Assembly: GCF_019891175.1 (NCBI RefSeq)
Contig: NZ_CP072600.1
Location: 682,001 to 746,000, forward strand
DNA from: Leptothermofonsia sichuanensis E412
GTDB taxonomy: Bacteria; Cyanobacteriota; Cyanobacteriia; Leptolyngbyales; Leptolyngbyaceae
DNA: 64,000 nucleotides
Direction of reading: 5' to 3'
Every line of letters starts with the position of its first letter. The first letter of the stretch is position 1. Under the pieces are notes generated by a model. The model searched no databases and was not told the DNA's origin. It saw only the letters and a program-made list of their open reading frames with translations. Position numbers and translations under genes: made by a program. Shown piece after piece: positions 20,229-62,009 of this stretch.

Positions 20229-23200
20229 ATGTCTGCAGGGAATTCCTTAAGTACAGCCACACTCATCAATCTCAACACGACGGTTCAAACCTTCCCAGAT
20301 ACCGTTACCGCCACTGAGAATGACTACTACCGCTTCACCCTGAGCAACCGCAGTAGCTTTAACCTGTCCCTCACAGGCCTGTCTGCCGATGCCGACGTTG
20401 CCCTGCTAGATAGTGCCGGCAACCCACTTACCATCAATGGCATTCAGCAGCGGTCCGCCAATTCCGGTACTTTTTCAGAATCCATTAACACCGTTCTGGA
20501 AGCCGGAACCTACTTCATCCATGTTTTTCCCGGTGCTTCCACCACCAGCGCTGACTACAGCCTGAATACGGTGATCAGCAATAACCTGTTTACCGATATT
20601 CTCTGGCGCAACTATGCCAGTGGCCAAAATGCCGTCTGGTTCTTGAATGGCACAACGTTCGAGGGGGCTACCTTCATTCAGCCTGTGACCGATTTGAACT
20701 ACGGGATTGCCGCCACGGTGGACTTCAATGGCGATGGAGAAACCGATATTCTCTGGCGCAATAACCTGGCAGGAGTCACGGGATTCTGGCTAATGAACGG
20801 GCTGTCCCTCAGTTCGGTGGCGATTATCAGTCCATCGTTGGGGCAGGACTGGCAGGTTTATGCCGCTGGGGACTTTAACCAGGATGGTCAGATTGACTTG
20901 CTCTGGCGGAATAACGTCAGCGGTGAAGCAGGCTTCTGGTTATTGAATGGCACTACCCTGAGTTCTGCCGTAGCTCTCGGTCCCACCCTGTCTCTGGACT
21001 GGCAAATTCAGGGAGTCGCAGACTTCAATGGAGATGGCAGGCTGGATATCTTCTGGCGTAACTTCGTCAACGGGCAAAACGGGGTGTGGTTTATGAACGG
21101 CACCAGCCTGCTTTCGGTAGGGGTGCCTCTAGCCGTTGGTAGTCCAGACTGGCGAGTGTCTGGCTTTGGCGACTTTAACCGCGATGGCAAGCCCGATATT
21201 CTCTGGCGCAACTATGCCAGTGGTGAGAATGCTATCTGGCTGATGAATGGGCTTTCGATTAGTTCAGTCGCCGTCCTGCCCTCGCTGGCTACCGACTGGC
21301 GATCGACTGTGCCCTTCATTAGAACTGGGGAACCCACACCAATTGACCTGGCTGGCAATTCCCTCCCAGATGCGTTCAACATCGGTAGCAACCTGACTGG
21401 CAGTGCCACCTATCGAGACGCTGTTGGTGGCTCAGACCCGAATGACTACTATCGCTTCAGCCTGGGCACAGGCAGTAACGTAAATCTGTCACTGACTGGA
21501 TTAAATGCCAATTTGGATCTGCAACTCCTGGATATTAACGGAGATCTGATCCTGACCTCTAATCAGGACGCTACCACCTCAGAATCTATTATTGCCACAC
21601 TGCCAGCCGGCACCTACTATGCTCGTGTCTATCCAGCCGGTAGCAATAGCGGCACCTATGCCCTGAATGTATCCGTCAATAATCTACCTGTACTTGCGAC
21701 CAACAATCCCCTGTCCGTGACCGAAGGGGAAGCCTCGAACCTGACGGGAACGATTTTACGGGTCACCGATAATGACAACACAGCGGCTCAGTTGACCTAC
21801 ACCCTGGGAACCCTGCCACAGAGGGGCGTGTTGCTGTTTAACGGAACCACCCTGGTTTCCGGGGCAACCTTCACCCAGGCAGATATCGACAATGGTACCC
21901 GCCTCCGCTACCAGCACGACGGCAGCGAAACGCTCACAGATAGCTTTACATTCACCGTCACGGATGGCGTCGGGGGCAATCTGGGCAGTAATACCTTCAA
22001 CATTGCCATTACGCCTGCCAATGATCCGCCAGTGTTTACGGTGCCCTCAGCAACCCAGGCCGCCGATCAGGATGCAAACCTGGCCATCACTGGTATCAGT
22101 ATTGCTGACCCTGACGCTGGTGATGGGCTGATCTCAGTCACACTCTCAGCCGCCAATGGGGTACTGACCCTGGGCTTCACAACAGGTTTAGCCTTCTCCC
22201 AGGGGACCGGGGTGCAGAACTCTAGCATGATCTTCAGCGGCACGCTGGCAGCGGTTAACAATGCCCTCAGCAGTTTGATTTATCGAAGCAACAGTACATT
22301 CCGGGGCGTCGATGTGATCAACCTGAGCGTGACCGACAACGGCAATACCGGGGAGGGAGGTCCCCTCTCCGACACCGCCACAATCGCGGTTGCCGTTTCC
22401 CCAATTAACCAGGCACCGATTATTTCCCTGCCTCCCACCCCGACTGGCAATGAAGATACCAATGTGTTCATCTCCGGTATCAGCATCACTGATATTGATG
22501 GCTTTGGTGGCAATGTCACCGTCAGTCTGTCAGCGGTCAATGGGGTGCTGACGCTCAACTCCACCTCTGGGTTGACCCTGCTCAACGGCAGCGGCACACA
22601 GGATCGGACGATGGTCTTCAGGGGACCCCTGGCGCTGGTGAATGCTGCCCTGAATAACCTGGTGTATCTGGGCAACCAGGACTTCAACGGCACGGACTTT
22701 ATCACGATCAGCGTCAATGACAGCCTGAGTCCGGGTACTGGTGGGATTCCTCTGTCAGATACCAAGACCCTGGCAATCACGGTCAATCCTGTGAATGATG
22801 CACCGGTTTTGACAGTACCCGCCACTCAAACCGCTAACGAAAATACCAACCTGCGGATTACGGGAGTCCGTGTCAGTGATGTGGATGCGGGAAATGGCAG
22901 CCTGATTGTCAGTCTAACCGCAGGCAATGGCACCCTGTCCCTGGGCACCACCACAGGGCTTTCCTTCTCCACTGGCAACGGCAACCAGAATACCAGCATG
23001 GTCTTCAGTGGCACCCTGGCAGCGATTAATAATGCACTTGCCACCCTGACCTATCGGGGCAACTCAAACTTTAATGGCACAGATACCGTGAATATCAGTG
23101 TCAATGACAATGGAAACACAGGTGCTGGTATTGCTTTAAGCGATAGTGCCGCGATCGCCATCAATGTTCTGGGAATTAACAGTGCGCCTGTGATTACAGT

Positions 23201-54401: not shown

Positions 54402-54497
54402 TTGAGTGGCACTGAATTAAGCCAGATACGATCGCTCAGATCTCCAACTTCTTCGAGAAGTTGGAGATCTTTAAACTCTTACATCAGTGCCATTCAA
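54402..54497. repeat. 96-bp MITE-like element with central hairpin (family E copy 1)
   Basis: TTGAGTGGCACTGA (54402-54415) and TCAGTGCCATTCAA (54484-54497) form a 14-bp terminal inverted repeat with one mismatch. Inside, AGATCTCCAACTTCT (54438-54452) and AGAAGTTGGAGATCT (54456-54470) form a perfect 15-bp hairpin with a 3-base loop, followed by TTTAAACTCTT. The right half recurs at 61950-62009. The left end overlaps the TAA of the kinase gene's end region, so it may act as its terminator. Confidence 0.8.
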
Positions 54498-54556: not shown

Positions 54557-56029
54557 TTATGAATTGACAGGCTCCCTGAGGCGATCGCCTTTTACCTTAA
54601 TCAACATATTTCCCAAATTCAACATCGGGTAGTTCGGCTCTGCAATCTGTGTAGGAGATGAAACAATGGAACCCTGAGCTTTCAGTTTTGCCAGTTCCGC
54701 TTTCACACCGCCCCCCGCGACATACCTGGCAGAATATTTTAAGCTTAAGGGATCTTCCAGCAATCCCTCAGGGAGGATTGCCAGACCAGCAGAGCTTACC
54801 TGATAGACCTTATGAAACTGGCGGTACTCACCACTACAGAACAGATAGTCCCAATCGCGGCGTTTTTGAATCAGGGCATAAAGGCTGGATGCGGTGATGT
54901 AAGTAAAGAAGTTTGCCAAGGGATTGCGTTTCTCAATTGCTCGAACGTCAGCCTGGGAGAAATCGATCTGCCAGGTCCGCTGCCCATCTGGAAAAACCAC
55001 TTCCAGTTGATAAATCACCTGCCATTGGCAGTGGCTGGCAAACAACGTCTGGAGATTTTCCTGAATAAACTCAGAAAATGCAACACTCATTTCCTGGAAA
55101 ATAACCTGGTGCATCTGAGCGACATTCTCATTGGCTGGATTGGCATCCCTTAAAGCACTTCCCACATTCACCGGTGAAAACTCAATCTGGTCGCGATCGT
55201 CCTCAACCATCCTCGCGTACTCGCACCCCCCTACCTCCAGGTGATAGGTTCCCTGATCCAGAGTGAACGTATCTCCCGGATCGAGGACATAAATGCGATC
55301 GTGAATTTCCGGTAAGACTTGAGCCACATCATGACAAAACCGTTCACGGGTGACCGGAAAAACCACCTGATTTTGCCACGCCGCTTCATTGATATACTTC
55401 CAGCCCTGAGCACCGGGGGCAATCGCCTCAGGGCTAATCAGTTGAATCAGTCGCAGCAGTTCACCATAGAGGGCAAAGGGAAAGGAAATACTTTGATTCA
55501 GTTGATATTTGACTTCCAGACTGATATGCCAGGTACTGAGTAAGAAATCAATCTGGGGAAAGTGGGATTGCACCGTTCGAATAGTAGGTGGAGCAAAATA
55601 GGTATCAACCGTATTCCAAAAAACGCCCGAAGGATCAGCAAACACCATACCAAACTCTGGCACACGAATCTCTGATCGCGTCGGCATCAGAATGGTAGAA
55701 CCAATTTTGACCTTCTGAAAGTCGTTTAAGGCGTAGACATTCCGATAGCCCAATTCCTGTAAGGTGGATTTGATCAGGGGATCAGGGGGAATGAGAACAT
55801 CGACATGTTTTGGAAGATAGGCAAGCGATCGCAGATCAAAGTGATCCAGATGTTGATGGGAAATCACCAGAAAGTCAAACTCTGGCAACCGTTCTGGAAA
55901 CACTTCTCGCTTAGGACAGGTTTCGTTTAAACCTTCACAAAAGGGGTCCCATAACACAGGGTCCATTAACACTCTGGCATCTTGAGTCTCTACCAATAGA
56001 GAAGCATGCCCGATCATGTGAATTTTCAT
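54557..56029 (-). CDS. Metallo-beta-lactamase-fold protein, last gene of a five-gene run
   Basis: A 490-residue protein. The first ~270 residues are a metallo-beta-lactamase fold: MKIHMIGHASLLVET, then the metal motif SHQHLDH (H58, H60, D62, H63), and VLIP, FLLSTW and APGAQGW further on. The C-terminal ~220 residues are a separate region (FQEMSVAFSEFIQENLQTLF, then WQVIYQLEVVFPDGQ and FCSGEYRQFHKVYQV) resembling the tail of UlaG/CMAH-like proteins, which is inference. The start is 10 nt downstream of the previous gene's stop on the minus strand. The reaction is unknown; the neighbours suggest a modification or biosynthetic pathway. Confidence 0.8.
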   Translation of the reverse strand: MKIHMIGHASLLVETQDARVLMDPVLWDPFCEGLNETCPKREVFPERLPEFDFLVISHQHLDHFDLRSLAYLPKHVDVLIPPDPLIKSTLQELGYRNVYALNDFQKVKIGSTILMPTRSEIRVPEFGMVFADPSGVFWNTVDTYFAPPTIRTVQSHFPQIDFLLSTWHISLEVKYQLNQSISFPFALYGELLRLIQLISPEAIAPGAQGWKYINEAAWQNQVVFPVTRERFCHDVAQVLPEIHDRIYVLDPGDTFTLDQGTYHLEVGGCEYARMVEDDRDQIEFSPVNVGSALRDANPANENVAQMHQVIFQEMSVAFSEFIQENLQTLFASHCQWQVIYQLEVVFPDGQRTWQIDFSQADVRAIEKRNPLANFFTYITASSLYALIQKRRDWDYLFCSGEYRQFHKVYQVSSAGLAILPEGLLEDPLSLKYSARYVAGGGVKAELAKLKAQGSIVSSPTQIAEPNYPMLNLGNMLIKVKGDRLREPVNS

Positions 56030-56039
56030 AGTCCAAAAA

Positions 56040-57833
56040 TCACTTCAAATAAGGAGGGAGAGCAAATTTAGCAATATATTCAGAATGATCTCGACAACGG
56101 TAACGGGGATGGCATTCGTTCATGTCCGTCTTCCAGTTCAACTCCCGCTTTGTCGCATCACAGGATTGGGCGAGCGCCAGGGCAATCAGTGCCGTAGAAA
56201 TCATTTGATAGGTATCCAGATAGAGCGAGATGCCATGCAGTTGTCCTGCAATGGTGCGAATTTGTTTCTGACTACTTTGGGAACGGTTAAAGAATTCGTT
56301 CAATACCGCAGCCTGCGAGTGTTCAGGAGCGGTTTCACTGGCTTTCAAACTGGAGTAAAAGGGAATTGCCGGTGTCTTCTGAGGAGGATAGTTGAGCAAT
56401 TCCATTAAGCGTAACTGCACAGCCCGAATGGTGCGATCGCTCACCCCTAAAGCTCCCAGGGTCAAAATCCCCAGGGCGGTTGAGAGGGCAACATCATACT
56501 TTCCAAAGGAATAATCTGAATTCAGGCTTGCCATCACCTCATTCAGCAGGCGATCGCGCAGTGGAGCAGCCTGTCCATCTTTCCGAATCGCTTCCGCCAG
56601 TACCCAATCCACCAGATAGGGATTGGCAAAATATAGCCCACTCCGTTGTTCAAACCCATCAATTAAATACTCAATCGGAGTTTTCTCAATCAATCCCACT
56701 TCTCGCCGTAACCAGCGCACCAGACAGGTGGTTGCATAATCTGACTGGCACCAGTGACGGCAGCTATCATCGACTACCATCCTGCCAGGTTCCTCTGCCT
56801 CCGACCAGCGTTGAGGGTAGTAGCCACCCTGCCCGTCAGCAAACTGTTCCAGTGCTTCAACGGATGCGGGTTCATGCAATCCCAGCAACACCAGGGCTGA
56901 ATCGGTAGCGGTGATCAGACAATGACTGTGGAATGCCCACAATTCCCCCTGCCGTTGACCCAGTAGATGGGATTGGAGTTGCTGTTGGGCAGCAACCAGT
57001 TCTGGGGGCGCGTCTCCCTCCTGCAAAGCCTGATTCAACGACCGCAGGACAAACCCTAAGGGCACCAGATCTCCGTAGGGAAAAGGTTTTTCGGGGGCTG
57101 GCGGCTGGCAGGTCATACTCAGCGATTTCTGACAGGCAGTTACTGCCAACTTTGCCAGTCCTGTAAAGCATCGCTGCTTCGACCACGCGACCCGCACCTG
57201 GGATGCCTGTAACAAACCAGATTCGATAAACGCATCAATGTTGCCGTGCCGGAAGAAGAAAATGTTGCAGTGGGCTGTGCGACTGAAATGGGACAGAATA
57301 CCTGCATGGATGTGGATGGGTAATCGATTCTGGAACCGTGCCAGGTAGTAGTCTTCCTTCTCCTCTCCACCCAGGAATTTTACCCCCACTGCCTGGAGTA
57401 ACTCGTAATGGTCAAAGCAGGGTTCTTGCTCGAAGATTGCCTGGGCCTGGCCACAGTCCCCTTCTAAGCGCAGATGCAATAGAACAGGGGGAAAGGGCTG
57501 TTCCTCTGCTAACCCTAAACAATCCGCTGCATCAACAGGCACCAGGGACAGACGTTGAGAGTAGCGATTTGCCAGGGAGGCTGGGGTGCGATCGCCATCC
57601 CAGATCTCCCCCGACTCGGCTTCTACCAGCTTCAACCCATTCTGAGCGGCTAAAAACCGTCCCTGGCTTGTCAGCACCACATGGCTATAGGGTTCCAGGG
57701 GTGTCTCTGGCGGCAGATGGTACATTGCCCGAATCGTATTGGCATCGGTCAGTTGACCGATCGCCGACAGGTTGAACAGAACCATCCATTCCAGGGATTC
57801 TGGTAGCAATCTCAGAATTTCAGAAACGAGCAT
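56040..57833 (-). CDS. Large protein of unrecognised family, possible alpha-toroid C-terminal half
   Basis: A 597-residue soluble protein, not recognised. The N-terminal ~250 residues are alpha/beta with several Cys and His (for example HIHAGILSHFSRTAHCNIFF). The C-terminal half is helical with repeats (HCLITATDSALVLLGL, then DGQGGYYPQRW, HWCQSDYATTCLVRWL and LSTALGILTLGALG). It recalls the alpha/alpha-barrel of terpene cyclases and protein prenyltransferases, but no DxDD motif is present; this likeness is inference only. Its start overlaps the stop of the preceding gene by one base (TAATG), so translation is probably coupled. Confidence 0.7.
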   Translation of the reverse strand: MLVSEILRLLPESLEWMVLFNLSAIGQLTDANTIRAMYHLPPETPLEPYSHVVLTSQGRFLAAQNGLKLVEAESGEIWDGDRTPASLANRYSQRLSLVPVDAADCLGLAEEQPFPPVLLHLRLEGDCGQAQAIFEQEPCFDHYELLQAVGVKFLGGEEKEDYYLARFQNRLPIHIHAGILSHFSRTAHCNIFFFRHGNIDAFIESGLLQASQVRVAWSKQRCFTGLAKLAVTACQKSLSMTCQPPAPEKPFPYGDLVPLGFVLRSLNQALQEGDAPPELVAAQQQLQSHLLGQRQGELWAFHSHCLITATDSALVLLGLHEPASVEALEQFADGQGGYYPQRWSEAEEPGRMVVDDSCRHWCQSDYATTCLVRWLRREVGLIEKTPIEYLIDGFEQRSGLYFANPYLVDWVLAEAIRKDGQAAPLRDRLLNEVMASLNSDYSFGKYDVALSTALGILTLGALGVSDRTIRAVQLRLMELLNYPPQKTPAIPFYSSLKASETAPEHSQAAVLNEFFNRSQSSQKQIRTIAGQLHGISLYLDTYQMISTALIALALAQSCDATKRELNWKTDMNECHPRYRCRDHSEYIAKFALPPYLK

Positions 57834-58942
57834 TATTCACCTTTGATTAAGCTACGACTGACATACAAATAAGCCTTGGCTTCCTTCACTTTCGACTCCT
57901 GATACACCAGCTTAATGTGGTGCAAGCCTTTGAAAATGACCCACTCATAGGCGGAACCCAACAACCCGGAAAGTTTACTGATATTTGCGGGCCACAAATC
58001 CGGGTTCATTCGCCTGCGGAGATAACCAGGGTATTGCAATAGTGCTTGATGTTTCTGTGGCAAACAGAAACCCTGCAACACCAGAAAGTCCAGAAACTGA
58101 ATCCAGCGGGGTTCAAATTTTGGTTGCTTTCTTAAATAACATTCCAGCCCAATTTTTGGCAGAACGCGATCGCTGATATCAATATCCAGGTCAATGCGAT
58201 CGACTCGATTAGATAGATCATTCAGTAATGTCTGGAGCGCATCCCCATCTCCCTGCCAACCGATACAACTGAGATACGGCACAATCGCAGCAGGTGCAAT
58301 ATCCCGGATACAAAGCCGCACCCCATCCCACTGACGTGCCAGCATTAAACCAATCTGGAATACATAAGCCTGCTCAGGAAGATGCTCAAAGCAGCGCATC
58401 AGATTAGTTTTGAGTGATTCCGATACGGGTTGCCCCAGTAACAAAACTAACGCTTGCTGCCACACCCAGGCATGGGGATGGTTCTCTTCAACCGCTGGAG
58501 CAGCAAACAGAGGGGAAGGTCCAAAAAAAGCGCTGGGCACCGGAATGGATTTGGCATTGGGTTCGGCAACATCAAACTCTAACCAGACATTCTGCACCTT
58601 CTCATAAAGGGGAGAAATCTCACTCTCCCAGTTCGTACTAAACTCCCGGATGCACTGCCACACCGGATGATCAAAGAGTTCTTCAGGTAAATCAATTCCA
58701 TAGGCATTGGCAGCCAGAACCCGTCGTCCCGCTTCAGAGGCATCAGCACAAACTAGAAAATCTGCGTTGGCTTCCGGTTGCCCTAAGCGGCATTCAAATC
58801 CAAAAAAGGTGGTGACCGCGCTGGGTAGTACCTGACCGAGCGGCAAAATCCGCGCCCACTGCTCCTCACTGATGAGGGCGATCGGGATATTTGCCTGCAT
58901 CAACCTCAGATAATCCGTTAGAGAGTCTGTTGCCATGACCAT
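57833..58942 (-). CDS. Protein of unrecognised family, second gene of the oxygenase run
   Basis: A 369-residue soluble protein, not recognised. It has a helical N-terminus (TDSLTDYLRLMQANIPIALI), a Pro-rich central linker (PNAKSIPVPSAFFGPSPLFA) and a well-ordered C-terminal half with VRLCIRDIAPAAIVPYLSCI, then RIDLDIDISDRVLPKIGLEC and WIQFLDFLVLQGFCLPQKHQ. The strand-helix pattern suggests a repeated alpha/beta fold. ATG 58942 is used; an ATG two codons later is possible. It overlaps the next gene by one base and follows the oxygenase gene by 47 nt. Confidence 0.7.
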   Translation of the reverse strand: MVMATDSLTDYLRLMQANIPIALISEEQWARILPLGQVLPSAVTTFFGFECRLGQPEANADFLVCADASEAGRRVLAANAYGIDLPEELFDHPVWQCIREFSTNWESEISPLYEKVQNVWLEFDVAEPNAKSIPVPSAFFGPSPLFAAPAVEENHPHAWVWQQALVLLLGQPVSESLKTNLMRCFEHLPEQAYVFQIGLMLARQWDGVRLCIRDIAPAAIVPYLSCIGWQGDGDALQTLLNDLSNRVDRIDLDIDISDRVLPKIGLECYLRKQPKFEPRWIQFLDFLVLQGFCLPQKHQALLQYPGYLRRRMNPDLWPANISKLSGLLGSAYEWVIFKGLHHIKLVYQESKVKEAKAYLYVSRSLIKGE

Positions 58943-58989
58943 AGTTTGTGCCGCACTACAGAAACCAATGTAAATGCAGTATTCCCCTA

Positions 58990-59610
58990 TTACTCAACTA
59001 AATCTTGACGACTGGAAGATTTGATCTCAAACTCAGGCACTTTAATAAGGTACTCCTCTGGTAAGTTGTACTGCTCACAGATCAAACTCATCCGAGCATG
59101 ACCCGTTTGGACAGGGGTGACAGAATGTAGAACCCAGCCTAAAAAGTGTACTAGCGTATTCGTTTCTGGCTCAACATGCCAGACAGACTTATCTTCCTGC
59201 AAAATTAGCTGTCCGCCCTGTAAGTCATTTGGGACGCAGATATATAACACACTCACTAAGCGAGGAGTTACCCACTCCATAAAATAGGAAGACAGGCTGC
59301 AATCAACATGTTCTTCTATACACGAATTTCCCTCTAACACCAGAGGATTTAGATAAAAGGCATTACATACTGGCATTAGCGCTTTTTCTAAGTATGGCTT
59401 GAAGTAAGGAAAATTCTGTTCAACCTGGCTGATACCAGAGCGTTTGAAAACAACAGAAAAGCCTTTTGTTGAAACAAACCGATCGCTAAGCTGACTCGTT
59501 CCTAAATATGGGCTTTCAAGGATTTCCTCCTTTAATGCCTGAAGTTCTTCCAGTGATAGAAAGTTTGGCTTTCTGGTATAACACTTTTTAGTACTGTTTG
59601 AGTTAGCCAT
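58990..59610 (-). CDS. 2-oxoglutarate/Fe(II)-dependent oxygenase, prolyl-4-hydroxylase-like
   Basis: A 206-residue enzyme with the double-stranded beta-helix facial triad. HVD gives H101 and D103, H162 is in LGWVLHSVTPV, and R173 in HARMSLI binds the 2-oxoglutarate carboxylate. QGGQLILQED and NTLVHF are typical of the P4Hc group. Such enzymes hydroxylate peptides or small molecules. Within this run it is the most clearly assignable enzyme and presumably hydroxylates the pathway's substrate. The ATG at 59610 is used; upstream lies a 337-bp gap with short frames. Confidence 0.85.
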   Translation of the reverse strand: MANSNSTKKCYTRKPNFLSLEELQALKEEILESPYLGTSQLSDRFVSTKGFSVVFKRSGISQVEQNFPYFKPYLEKALMPVCNAFYLNPLVLEGNSCIEEHVDCSLSSYFMEWVTPRLVSVLYICVPNDLQGGQLILQEDKSVWHVEPETNTLVHFLGWVLHSVTPVQTGHARMSLICEQYNLPEEYLIKVPEFEIKSSSRQDLVE

Positions 59611-59947
59611 CGTTAAAGAGTTACTTTTTATTAGCGAAATGCCGTTCGAGGTTCTCTAATTCCCAGGAATTCCACAATAGCCATTGCCTGAATATATCCC
59701 TCAGAAAACCTCTGGAGAAATGTAAGATCTGTTGGATAGACGGCTGGATCTTCTGGATCCTGGCAAAGGTAAAAAGTCCGGGCTTCTTGATATCAACCCA
59801 TTGCAAATGAATAAAACGTCTGCCGATGATCCCTACTTTGTTAATTTAAAGGCTTACACTTTTTGGGATCAGTTTCAAAACCAATTAAGCAGCAATCTTC
59901 CTGATCAAACAGCAGAAAGCAAAAAGATCAAGCTCCTCCAAGCTCTT
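59611..59947. other. Gap between oxygenase and second MBL gene with short reading frames
   Basis: On the minus strand (the direction of the locus) a 61-codon frame runs 59621-59806 from a TTG (MQWVDIKKPGLFTFARIQKI). A 17-codon frame, MAIVEFLGIREPRTAFR, starts at 59682. On the plus strand, a frame starting at ATG 59807 (MNKTSADDPYFVNLKAYTFW) looks equally protein-like but runs antisense into the MBL gene. None has a good ribosome site. A short precursor or leader peptide is possible but unproved. Confidence 0.4.
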
Positions 59948-61414
59948 CTAATTCGTAACCCAATTACCGGGCTTCAGGCTCCATTCTCCACTTCTCTGGA
60001 TAAGATATCCATCTCCAATCGTCCAGGGAACCACTTGAGTAGAAGCACCCAGCGCTTGCAGGGCAGCCTCAACCTGGGGAATCAAGGTCCTATCCCCCAC
60101 ACCGGGTTGTCCTACTTCTGCCCAACTATCCGCATAGGGAAGGCAGGCTTTGGCTCCAACAATAGCGCACAACCCGGCGACCCCCTGGGGTCCTAACAAG
60201 GCAACATAGGCTCCTTCTGGTTTGTTGGTGACGGAGAAAATGCGAGGATTGCTCAGTAAGTTGGCAACGATATCAATTCCCCAGGCGGATAGATCGGTAC
60301 CAATGGAATTGTAGGAAAGCGGTTGGAAATTGCTGATCACGAGGTCAATAGAACCAAACTGCTGCTTGACATACTCCGCCACTTCCAGCATAGAACCCAT
60401 CGGGTCTTGACCGGAGTCAATCAGTAGCCAGGACTTGTAGTATTCAGTATTCAGGAGATAGGTGTTTCCCCAATTTCTCAGATCTGGATGAACAGGTTCG
60501 TTGAATTCTGGAACCAGGGGCTGCTCCCCATAAAAGGGAAGCACATGCACATCGATATCTCCCACTCGAATTGGATCAGCATACCAATCCACCGCAATCA
60601 CATTGGTAAAGCCCAAATCCTGCAGCCGATCAGCCATATCCTCACACATGATCGATGCCCGTGGCACTTTGGGGACGAAGATGGGGATGTCCGGTGGAAA
60701 CATCATCAGGGTGGGATAGTGCCAGTGATCATAGTGGGGATGGGAAATTAAAATACCATCGACCAATCCTTCAAGCTGCGATCGCGTAATATCTGTCTTC
60801 AACTCTGGAATTCCATAATTGGAATGGAGATGGGGGTCAACCAGAATCCCAGTGGTTTTGGTGCGATAGAGTAATGCTGCGTGTTGTAATCGGTAAACTC
60901 CAGGTGCATCTGGATGAATACCTGGGTGAGCGGGCGGTTGCTCTTTGACAATGCTGCATTGAATCCACTGATTCAACAATTGAACCATCGGTTCATCAAG
61001 CTGCTGGCAGATTTGCTCATAGGTCAGGTTCGATTGCCCACATAAGTGAAGCAATTGGTGAATCTTTGGCAAGATTTCCTTATCCTGAATAACCTGTACT
61101 CCACTTTTATTCAGAAAATCAGGGAAACGCGCATTGTTATACGCGATACATAGCAGCGGATTTTGTTGCGGAAATAGAACGCGCTCTTTAAGGCTAAAGG
61201 TCTCTTCAATATGACTTGAGCCAATATTGAACAGTTTTTCAGAAATAGCAGGGTATCTTTCTACAGCTTGATTAATAGACTGTGCCAAATTTTGGCATTC
61301 AACAAAATGGTTAAGAATTTGCTGAATAAATGGTTGAATAGCAATACAAATTTGATCATTGGCATTTACGGGACGAAGTTGTGCTCCTCGACAAAAGGAG
61401 ATGAAATTAGCCAT
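59948..61414 (-). CDS. Metallo-beta-lactamase-fold protein with N-terminal extension
   Basis: A 488-residue protein. Residues 1-165 are a helical extension ending in a small winged-helix-like stretch (LTYEQICQQLDEPMVQLLNQ). From 172 a metallo-beta-lactamase fold follows: YRLQHAALLYRTKTTGILVD, the metal motif SHPHYDH (H225, H227, D229, H230), FVPKVPRASIM, VHVLPFYGEQP and the later acidic ligand in LLIDSGQD. The C-terminal ~120 residues are Gly/Ala-rich. It is quite different from the MBL protein at 54557, so the two are not recent duplicates. It is probably the first gene of the locus. The substrate is unknown. Confidence 0.8.
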   Translation of the reverse strand: MANFISFCRGAQLRPVNANDQICIAIQPFIQQILNHFVECQNLAQSINQAVERYPAISEKLFNIGSSHIEETFSLKERVLFPQQNPLLCIAYNNARFPDFLNKSGVQVIQDKEILPKIHQLLHLCGQSNLTYEQICQQLDEPMVQLLNQWIQCSIVKEQPPAHPGIHPDAPGVYRLQHAALLYRTKTTGILVDPHLHSNYGIPELKTDITRSQLEGLVDGILISHPHYDHWHYPTLMMFPPDIPIFVPKVPRASIMCEDMADRLQDLGFTNVIAVDWYADPIRVGDIDVHVLPFYGEQPLVPEFNEPVHPDLRNWGNTYLLNTEYYKSWLLIDSGQDPMGSMLEVAEYVKQQFGSIDLVISNFQPLSYNSIGTDLSAWGIDIVANLLSNPRIFSVTNKPEGAYVALLGPQGVAGLCAIVGAKACLPYADSWAEVGQPGVGDRTLIPQVEAALQALGASTQVVPWTIGDGYLIQRSGEWSLKPGNWVTN

Positions 61415-61949: not shown

Positions 61950-62009
61950 AGATCTCCAACTTCTTCCAGAAGTTGGAGATCTTTAAGCCCTTATGTCAGT
62001 GCCATTCAA
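61950..62009. repeat. Family E element, right half (copy 2)
   Basis: It carries the same hairpin (AGATCTCCAACTTCT/AGAAGTTGGAGATCT, loop TCC), a TTTAAG stretch and the right inverted repeat TCAGTGCCATTCAA as the element at 54402-54497. The left inverted repeat is absent. It lies just downstream of the cyclase gene's stop, where the hairpin could terminate it. Confidence 0.7.

Follow-up and report, generated by a model that had tools for sequence, protein, structure and literature searches.

What might five genes make together when two of their products match no known sequence family? The question is raised by a locus at positions 54557–61414 of a 64,000-nucleotide stretch (hereafter the window) of the genome of the cyanobacterium Leptothermofonsia sichuanensis E412. 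An earlier note, made from the letters alone, had described two metallo-β-lactamase (MBL) fold proteins, a 2-oxoglutarate (2OG) oxygenase and two novel proteins of 597 and 369 residues, and had suspected a biosynthetic or peptide-modification pathway. We consider it likely that these genes supply the tailoring half of a split cluster for a ribosomally synthesized and posttranslationally modified peptide (RiPP), prenylating, perhaps cyclising, and hydroxylating the peptide at its C-terminal tryptophan.

The five minus-strand open reading frames (ORFs) were found where the note had placed them. P5 (59948–61414, 488 aa), a CmlA-like MBL-fold protein and probable diiron peptide hydroxylase, is followed after 337 nt by P4 (58990–59610, 206 aa), a 2OG-Fe(II) oxygenase similar to PiuC and YbiX; then come P3 (57833–58942, 369 aa), an ABBA-fold prenyltransferase by its predicted structure, P2 (56040–57833, 597 aa), with an N-terminal domain (residues 1–206) and a class II terpene-cyclase-fold toroid (207–560) lacking the DxDD motif, and P1 (54557–56029, 490 aa), a second MBL-fold protein, hydroxylase or hydrolase, with a distant match to a diiron monooxygenase. 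The spacing of the last four is as tight as described (gaps of 47 and 10 nt, with an overlap of 1 nt between P3 and P2). Since P2, P3 and P5 are ~43–70% identical to relatives in other cyanobacterial families and gene order is kept there, the locus is not a chance arrangement.

Folds of the Two Unassigned Proteins

In sequence searches P2 and P3 gave no Pfam or NCBIfam match and no PDB profile with a credible E-value, family assignments at the locus being confined to the MBL and 2OG parts; PADLOC, too, offered nothing usable for either, and a Pfam scan of 16 P3 members returned no prenyltransferase family among its matches. To that extent the two proteins do lack a family, but by fold both can be assigned. 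The AlphaFold model of P3 (16 sequences used; predicted local distance difference test, pLDDT, 90.9; predicted template modeling score, pTM, 0.90) has the strand and helix order of a barrel of beta-beta-alpha-alpha repeats, the ABBA fold. Its best VIA matches, at Z 16.1, are CymD with L-Trp and MpnD (root-mean-square deviation, rmsd, 4.0; 294 residues), the best Foldseek match is AnaPT (E 1.4e-5), and all 50 of the 50 VIA rows listed are ABBA-fold aromatic or amino-acid prenyltransferases, the closest being largely Trp or indole enzymes. On this modeled structure P3 is most likely a prenyltransferase of the ABBA fold, with the C-terminal Trp of the precursor as its predicted target. Residues E122, R203, R209, K/R263, K344, K356 and Y358, candidates for the catalytic acid and the basic and tyrosine residues that bind diphosphate in such barrels, are kept in 25 of 25 sequences of the P3 family, as read from the alignment and not from superposition on a known active site. 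Several loci have P3 extended at its C terminus by a fused 2OG domain.

The note's possible alpha-toroid proved on structure comparison to be a class II terpene-cyclase toroid inside P2 (AlphaFold model from 17 sequences; pLDDT 87.1, pTM 0.88). Residues 207–560 match 8paj_B at VIA Z 26.6 (rmsd 3.4, 303 aligned) and MstE (6sbc) at Z 25.3, and the best Foldseek E-value is 3.6e-7. Among the first 24 VIA rows, 23 bear the names of class II cyclases, squalene-hopene-type or other (Z 19.7–26.6), and the remaining one is an Actinoplanes protein without a name; noncyclase toroids score lower, at Z ~18. Invariant across 17 aligned relatives, including one linked to a UbiA prenyltransferase, are T308, D311, S312, H360–Q363, D365, D440 and D447. 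From the order of the inner helices, read without superposition, T308-x-x-D311-S312 appears to occupy the place that the DxDD motif holds in two cyclases found beside P3 relatives. A shared fold is no proof of function for either P2 or P3.

These two cyclases are single-domain proteins adjoining P3 relatives in loci without P2 (L075, 8154–9179, and L079, 11740–12822; labels L0xx denote locus stretches and G0xx genomes), and by sequence they appear to give the P3 prenyltransferase family cyclase partners of a second kind.

A Conserved Gene Neighborhood

We searched for P2 in 291 sampled cyanobacterial genomes and then in named genomes (18 loci) and plasmids. Besides that of the window, the 291 genomes gave eight strong relatives (51–57% identity); a family profile recovered the same nine genomes and neither of two weak matches (G175 and G067), which were dropped. 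The genus and family mates examined held no strong relative, and the distribution is therefore patchy. With same-contig pairs (L012/L026, L013/L029, L015/L030, L019/L032) counted once and pPg_03 counted as L017, there are 24 distinct P2 loci including the window: 19 in Cyanobacteriota, 2 in Chloroflexota and 1 each in Acidobacteriota (Terracidiphilus gabretensis), Bacteroidota and Pseudomonadota (Azospirillum sp. B510).

In 21 of the 24 loci P2 and P3 share a stretch, always as separate ORFs (21/21), with LanM sitting between the two in L034; in L037, near a contig end, just the first 104 P2 residues were matched and the stretch has no P3. A LanM gene is present in 17 of the 24 stretches and as a fragment in L037, and for the window and G043 it is found elsewhere in the genome. 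P5 occurs in 14 loci (a contig-end fragment in L027), P4 in 12 and P1 in 9 (the stretch of L017 reaching just the start of the protein). The order P5-P4-P3-P2 on one strand is kept in 11 loci including the window, with one gene between P5 and P4 in L020, and the gene directly after P2 is that of P1 in the window, L020 and L035. An MDR dehydrogenase, a JmjC_2 protein, parts of an NHLM-type exporter, a TIGR03896 protein and DUF7005 also recur as neighbors. All nine P2-bearing genomes among the 291 have P3 and LanM over the cut-off (Fisher test, 4.6e-12 and 7.7e-10), and the pairwise identities of P2 and P3 are correlated (Spearman 0.85 over 15 loci, the pairs not being independent). Homologs are thus not scattered; they keep their order, mostly beside RiPP precursors and LanM, as expected from the peptide-modification pathway that the note had proposed.

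On the Pseudanabaena galeata plasmid pPg_03 (L086) the whole cluster stands beside an IS1380 transposase, a location consistent with the patchy distribution. In its RefSeq record P2 is a "hypothetical protein" and P3, there fused to a 2OG domain, a "2OG-Fe(II) oxygenase"; routine annotation can therefore miss the prenylation part. In a Bacteroidota metagenome-assembled genome (MAG), a P2 relative of 36% identity adjoins a UbiA prenyltransferase (L036, 10001–12650), and relatives of P2 may have a further role in the making of small-molecule meroterpenoids. At L012 (4254–4454) a 66-aa ORF upstream of P5 has a leader-like end, VSDENLEKVSG, followed only by VGTFTR.

Precursors Ending in Tryptophan

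Precursors were listed with leader-only Nif11 and NHLP profiles built from the leaders of P2 loci. At P2-linked loci 33 of 37 precursors end in Trp, made up of 26 of 29, the two of the window's genome included, and 7 of 8 at the Azospirillum locus, which came to light later. LanM loci without P2 gave 0 of 35 (26 precursors from 23 control stretches, 11 of which had no precursor listed, and 9 from L071). Counted per locus, a C-terminal Trp is found in 16 of 16 P2-linked and 0 of 13 control loci, shared ancestry not being removed from these counts. Leader profiles of this origin could favor close relatives, yet control precursors reach E-values of 5e-27 (L061) and 1e-28 (L071). Edge-truncated precursor L013_17658 and stretches L024, L033, L036 and L037 were excluded.

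The assignment of two groups of loci affects the counts. L071 continues the contig of L026 and contains that cluster's LanM followed by two further LanMs with nine NHLP precursors; we treated these nine as controls because the two LanMs pair with those of L061, which has no P2 (support 100 each), and counting them as P2-linked would give 33 of 46 against 0 of 26. L053–L055 were kept as controls though they carry a P3 relative without P2, since linkage to P2 defines the comparison, and omitting their four precursors leaves 0 of 31. Beside P3 relatives without P2, a C-terminal Trp was found in 1 of 8 precursors (L072–L079) and 0 of 4 (L053–L055); since these relatives do not show it, the rule belongs to the P2/P3 set. 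At one such locus, L076 (9470–15270), a tryptophan halogenase accompanies the P3 relative, and a precursor of weak score ends in SSCSQW.

A Probable Second Half of the Cluster

No precursor was found inside the window with the Nif11 and NHLP profiles (best E 0.33). All five genes of the locus are present, but as a unit they probably form only half of a cluster, the other half lying ~94 kb away on the same contig (genome 837242–844321). It consists of the only LanM of the genome (837242–840523), two precursors with Nif11 leaders that both end in KIKW (840646–841077 and 841194–841544), a JmjC_2 protein (841862–843130) and an MDR, LanJ-like dehydrogenase (843197–844321). Taken together, the two halves equal the gene set carried in one piece by L025 and L032.

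The LanM tree (46 rows; a quick tree with some long rows) groups the LanM of the window's genome in a clade of 15, all from P2-bearing genomes (SH-aLRT, the Shimodaira–Hasegawa-like approximate likelihood ratio test, 100). Of the 15, 12 lie near P2; the others are L071_3, located just after the L026 cluster, the LanM of the window's genome itself and the detached LanM of G043. The 31 other rows, including those of all 23 control stretches, fall outside. In G043 (L070, L016) P2/P3 and LanM are on different contigs, and the leader profiles gave no precursor in these stretches.

The genes of a class II lanthipeptide, LanM and two Nif11 precursors, are thus present at this distance; the Cys required for thioether rings is not, as both cores of the genome are Cys-free and 25 of 29 P2-linked cores lack it. 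The dehydrogenase of the detached half has among its best plasmid matches outside the clusters one on Lactococcus pMRC01 (33.3% identity, E 2e-50), where the gene comes after a DUF4135 (LanM-type) protein with LanM nearby, and which we take to be of the LtnJ (LanJ) type; the general MDRs listed score far lower, ~1e-6 to 1e-18. From this similarity we infer a LanJ role, the reduction of dehydro residues. Unlike in LtnJ/LanJ systems the cores here are without Cys, so reduction would dominate over ring formation.

Probable Oxygenases of the Locus

Both MBL motifs of the note, SHQHLDH in P1 and SHPHYDH in P5, were found, and the folds stand; for at least one of the two enzymes, P5, the reading changes, an oxygenase being more probable than a hydrolase. 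P5 matches CmlA (4jo0) with a phmmer E-value of 1.6e-10 and a family-profile E-value of 1.4e-13; its HxHxDH aligns with that of CmlA and its E297 with the Glu of CmlA LPFLGE, so that the metal ligands have their counterparts. The alignment spans residues 170–298 only, and a match to 8a90 starts at 122. P5 is a probable CmlA-like diiron peptide hydroxylase, judged by sequence; with CmlA and 8a90 it shares the MBL fold and the HxHxDH with a following Glu, and it differs in its RiPP context, its first 120–170 residues being unmatched. The known diiron monooxygenases of this type act in nonribosomal peptide synthetase (NRPS) pathways. Our literature searches found no ribosomal-peptide case of a CmlA-like diiron enzyme, and P5 suggests that CmlA-type oxygenation extends beyond NRPS pathways. 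P1 matches the nonheme diiron monooxygenase 8a90 (phmmer E 4.5e-7) and Lactamase_B_3 of Pfam (6.8e-9), and its H58, H60, D62, H63 and E120 are invariant in 8 of 8 sequences.

The iron and 2OG ligands that the note had named in P4 (H101, D103, H162 and R173) are confirmed and invariant in nine of nine aligned sequences. P4 matches Pfam 2OG-FeII_Oxy_3 (3.1e-6) and PKHD-type hydroxylases of the PDB (3.5e-5 to 1.8e-4); a strong PADLOC 2OG match bears a CRISPR-associated label, which was not used. Two loci, L014 and L035, have P4 in one protein with an FkbM methyltransferase domain. A remnant of such a domain with in-frame stops lies between P5 and P4 on the minus strand (59670–59885) and matches the FkbM-2OG fusion of L035 across two stops (tblastn; 36%, 72 aa, E 1e-12).

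A Proposed Pathway and Its Alternatives

The chemistry that we infer builds on what was observed of folds, synteny, precursor ends and the clade of the detached LanM. LanM would dehydrate Ser and Thr of a Cys-free, hydrophobic core, and the LanJ-like enzyme would convert the dehydro residues to D-Ala and D-Abu. P3 would prenylate the C-terminal Trp on its indole; P2 would bind the prenylated end and probably cyclise the chain in the manner of MstE-like enzymes, with an acid other than that of DxDD. Hydroxylation of the peptide or terpenoid would fall to P5, P4, the JmjC protein and perhaps P1, and the leader would be removed at a GG site. More tentatively, and at somewhat less than even chances, P3 and P2 are a pair for prenylation and cyclisation in which a DxDD-less cyclase fold forms rings from the chain at the C-terminal Trp; the peptides, Cys-free, dehydrated and reduced, are then decorated by CmlA-like and 2OG/JmjC enzymes, so that the loci would define a terpenoid-anchored, D-amino-acid-rich class in at least four phyla.

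Several observations weigh against this account. D-x-D-[DT] is absent from all 17 aligned P2 relatives (D-x-D-[DTS] from 15 of them, the other two having a stray D-x-D-S at residue 547 or 558), and hhalign detected no credible sequence-profile similarity of P2 to squalene-hopene cyclases, whether the target was one of two canonical cyclases by itself or 20 squalene-hopene sequences in alignment; because of both, P2 may not cyclise. P3 was searched for and not found in the L033 and L036 genomes, both MAGs, and three ORFs of L033 run against Pfam revealed no prenyltransferase, though at L036 the UbiA neighbor, another prenyltransferase, speaks for the account. Several loci lie on contigs too short for a whole neighborhood. 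Four precursors do not end in Trp: L026_19652 (odd N terminus, PKAK), L021_6658 (KKFM), L035_14984 (weak leader match, SSLV) and an overlapping ORF in L084; and the P2-set stretches L014, L016, L022, L030 and L070 gave no precursor. The P2-linked LanMs of L028, L031, L034 and L084, loci with NHLP-type precursors, fall outside the clade of 15, implying that LanM was recruited more than once or exchanged. Finally, the two half-clusters are not adjacent.

For P2 there is another reading. The protein could be a chaperone or carrier with a terpene-cyclase fold that presents the prenylated peptide to P3, leaving a linear chain on the C-terminal Trp. The missing DxDD and the lack of sequence similarity to canonical cyclases suit such a role, as does the extra N-terminal domain of ~206 residues without assignment; the residues invariant in 17 relatives nevertheless fit an active site, and at L075 and L079 it is a class II cyclase with a canonical motif (DLDDTA and DADTT) that adjoins P3. 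We regard the carrier as a rather unlikely alternative. It is improbable that P3 and P2 modify the peptide elsewhere or produce a terpenoid small molecule, with the C-terminal Trp serving only as a recognition tag for, e.g., LanM or export. The P3 family needs no such residue, since precursors beside P2-less relatives mostly lack it, and the UbiA neighbor at L036 suggests small-molecule use of P2 relatives; yet a C-terminal Trp goes with P2/P3 loci through two families of leaders and four phyla, LanM loci without P2 do not have it, and the folds closest to that of P3 are largely those of Trp or indole enzymes.

A decaying, nonfunctional remnant left after the break-up of a cluster seems to us quite improbable. 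The stop-bearing FkbM domain and the ~94 kb between P2/P3 and LanM with the precursors speak for decay. In both halves, however, the five genes are uninterrupted and as long as their relatives, P1–P5 retain the residues invariant in their families, and the FkbM domain occurs in only 2 of 12 P4-bearing loci and is therefore no essential part; a second genome, G043, likewise has a detached LanM of the same clade. Prenylation by P3 at a C-terminal Trp, with P2 as its partner, is the reading we retain.

Comparison with Known Systems

The note named no known cluster of this make-up, and for the kind of chemistry there is a precedent. It comes from the NctPC/ChrPC RiPPs with their polycyclic isoprenoid. 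In NctPC, by the account of a 2026 review (PMC13290415, citing Hubrich et al. 2024, PMC11484575), one protein joins an ABBA prenyltransferase to an MstE-like cyclase; it attaches geranylgeranyl to Trp, and the group is then cyclised. Cyclised isoprenoids on a RiPP Trp have thus been reported since 2024, as far as the review describes them. As in that description, the present set combines an ABBA prenyltransferase, there of low similarity to cyanobactin enzymes, with an MstE-like cyclase fold and a Trp-bearing RiPP precursor, here ~94 kb off. Compared by description, NctPC is fused whereas here the two proteins are separate; P2 lacks DxDD and carries an additional N-terminal domain, the Trp stands at the C-terminal end, and LanM, a LanJ-like enzyme and several oxygenases belong to the set. 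MppC, described as an ABBA-type lanthipeptide prenyltransferase linked to LanM and a Nif11-like leader, acts on a Trp indole (Wakeel et al. 2025, PMC12715784). By that description its core is lanthionine-ringed with Trp82, in contrast to the mostly Cys-free cores with a terminal Trp here, and the parts of the paper available to us mention no cyclase partner such as P2. PalQ is selective for the C-terminal Trp of a RiPP (PMC10853753); it belongs to the isoprenoid-synthase superfamily, not to ABBA, and the portions seen mention neither a cyclase nor LanM. With MstE and squalene-hopene-type class II cyclases, P2 has in common the fold of residues 207–560, and it differs in the missing DxDD, the absent profile similarity and the N-terminal domain.

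What appears new here is the use of separate enzymes, the absence of DxDD, the C-terminal Trp, the several oxygenases and the spread over four phyla. Our literature searches turned up neither the arrangement in two genes nor a cyclase fold without DxDD, the rule of a C-terminal Trp or such a set of oxygenases; outside their reach lay Hubrich et al. 2024 and supplementary mining tables, in which some of the clusters may be listed. The P2/P3 pair offers a specific hook for genome mining and the C-terminal Trp a testable substrate rule, while a terpene-cyclase fold that lacks the acid motif raises a clear question of mechanism.

Other Features of the Window

A 33-bp near-perfect palindrome flanks the five-gene locus (54438–54470 and 61950–61982). 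It was rejected as the end of a mobile element: with at least 43 exact places genome-wide it is a dispersed repeat, similar to a repetitive extragenic palindromic sequence or a terminator, and uninformative on the locus. Farther away, positions 20229–43846 encode two giant repeat proteins (3121 and 2516 aa), a PpiC-like protein and an ABC transporter, part of which is probably cyclic-nucleotide-binding and C39-like; by sequence, this gene group is probably a type I secretion set.

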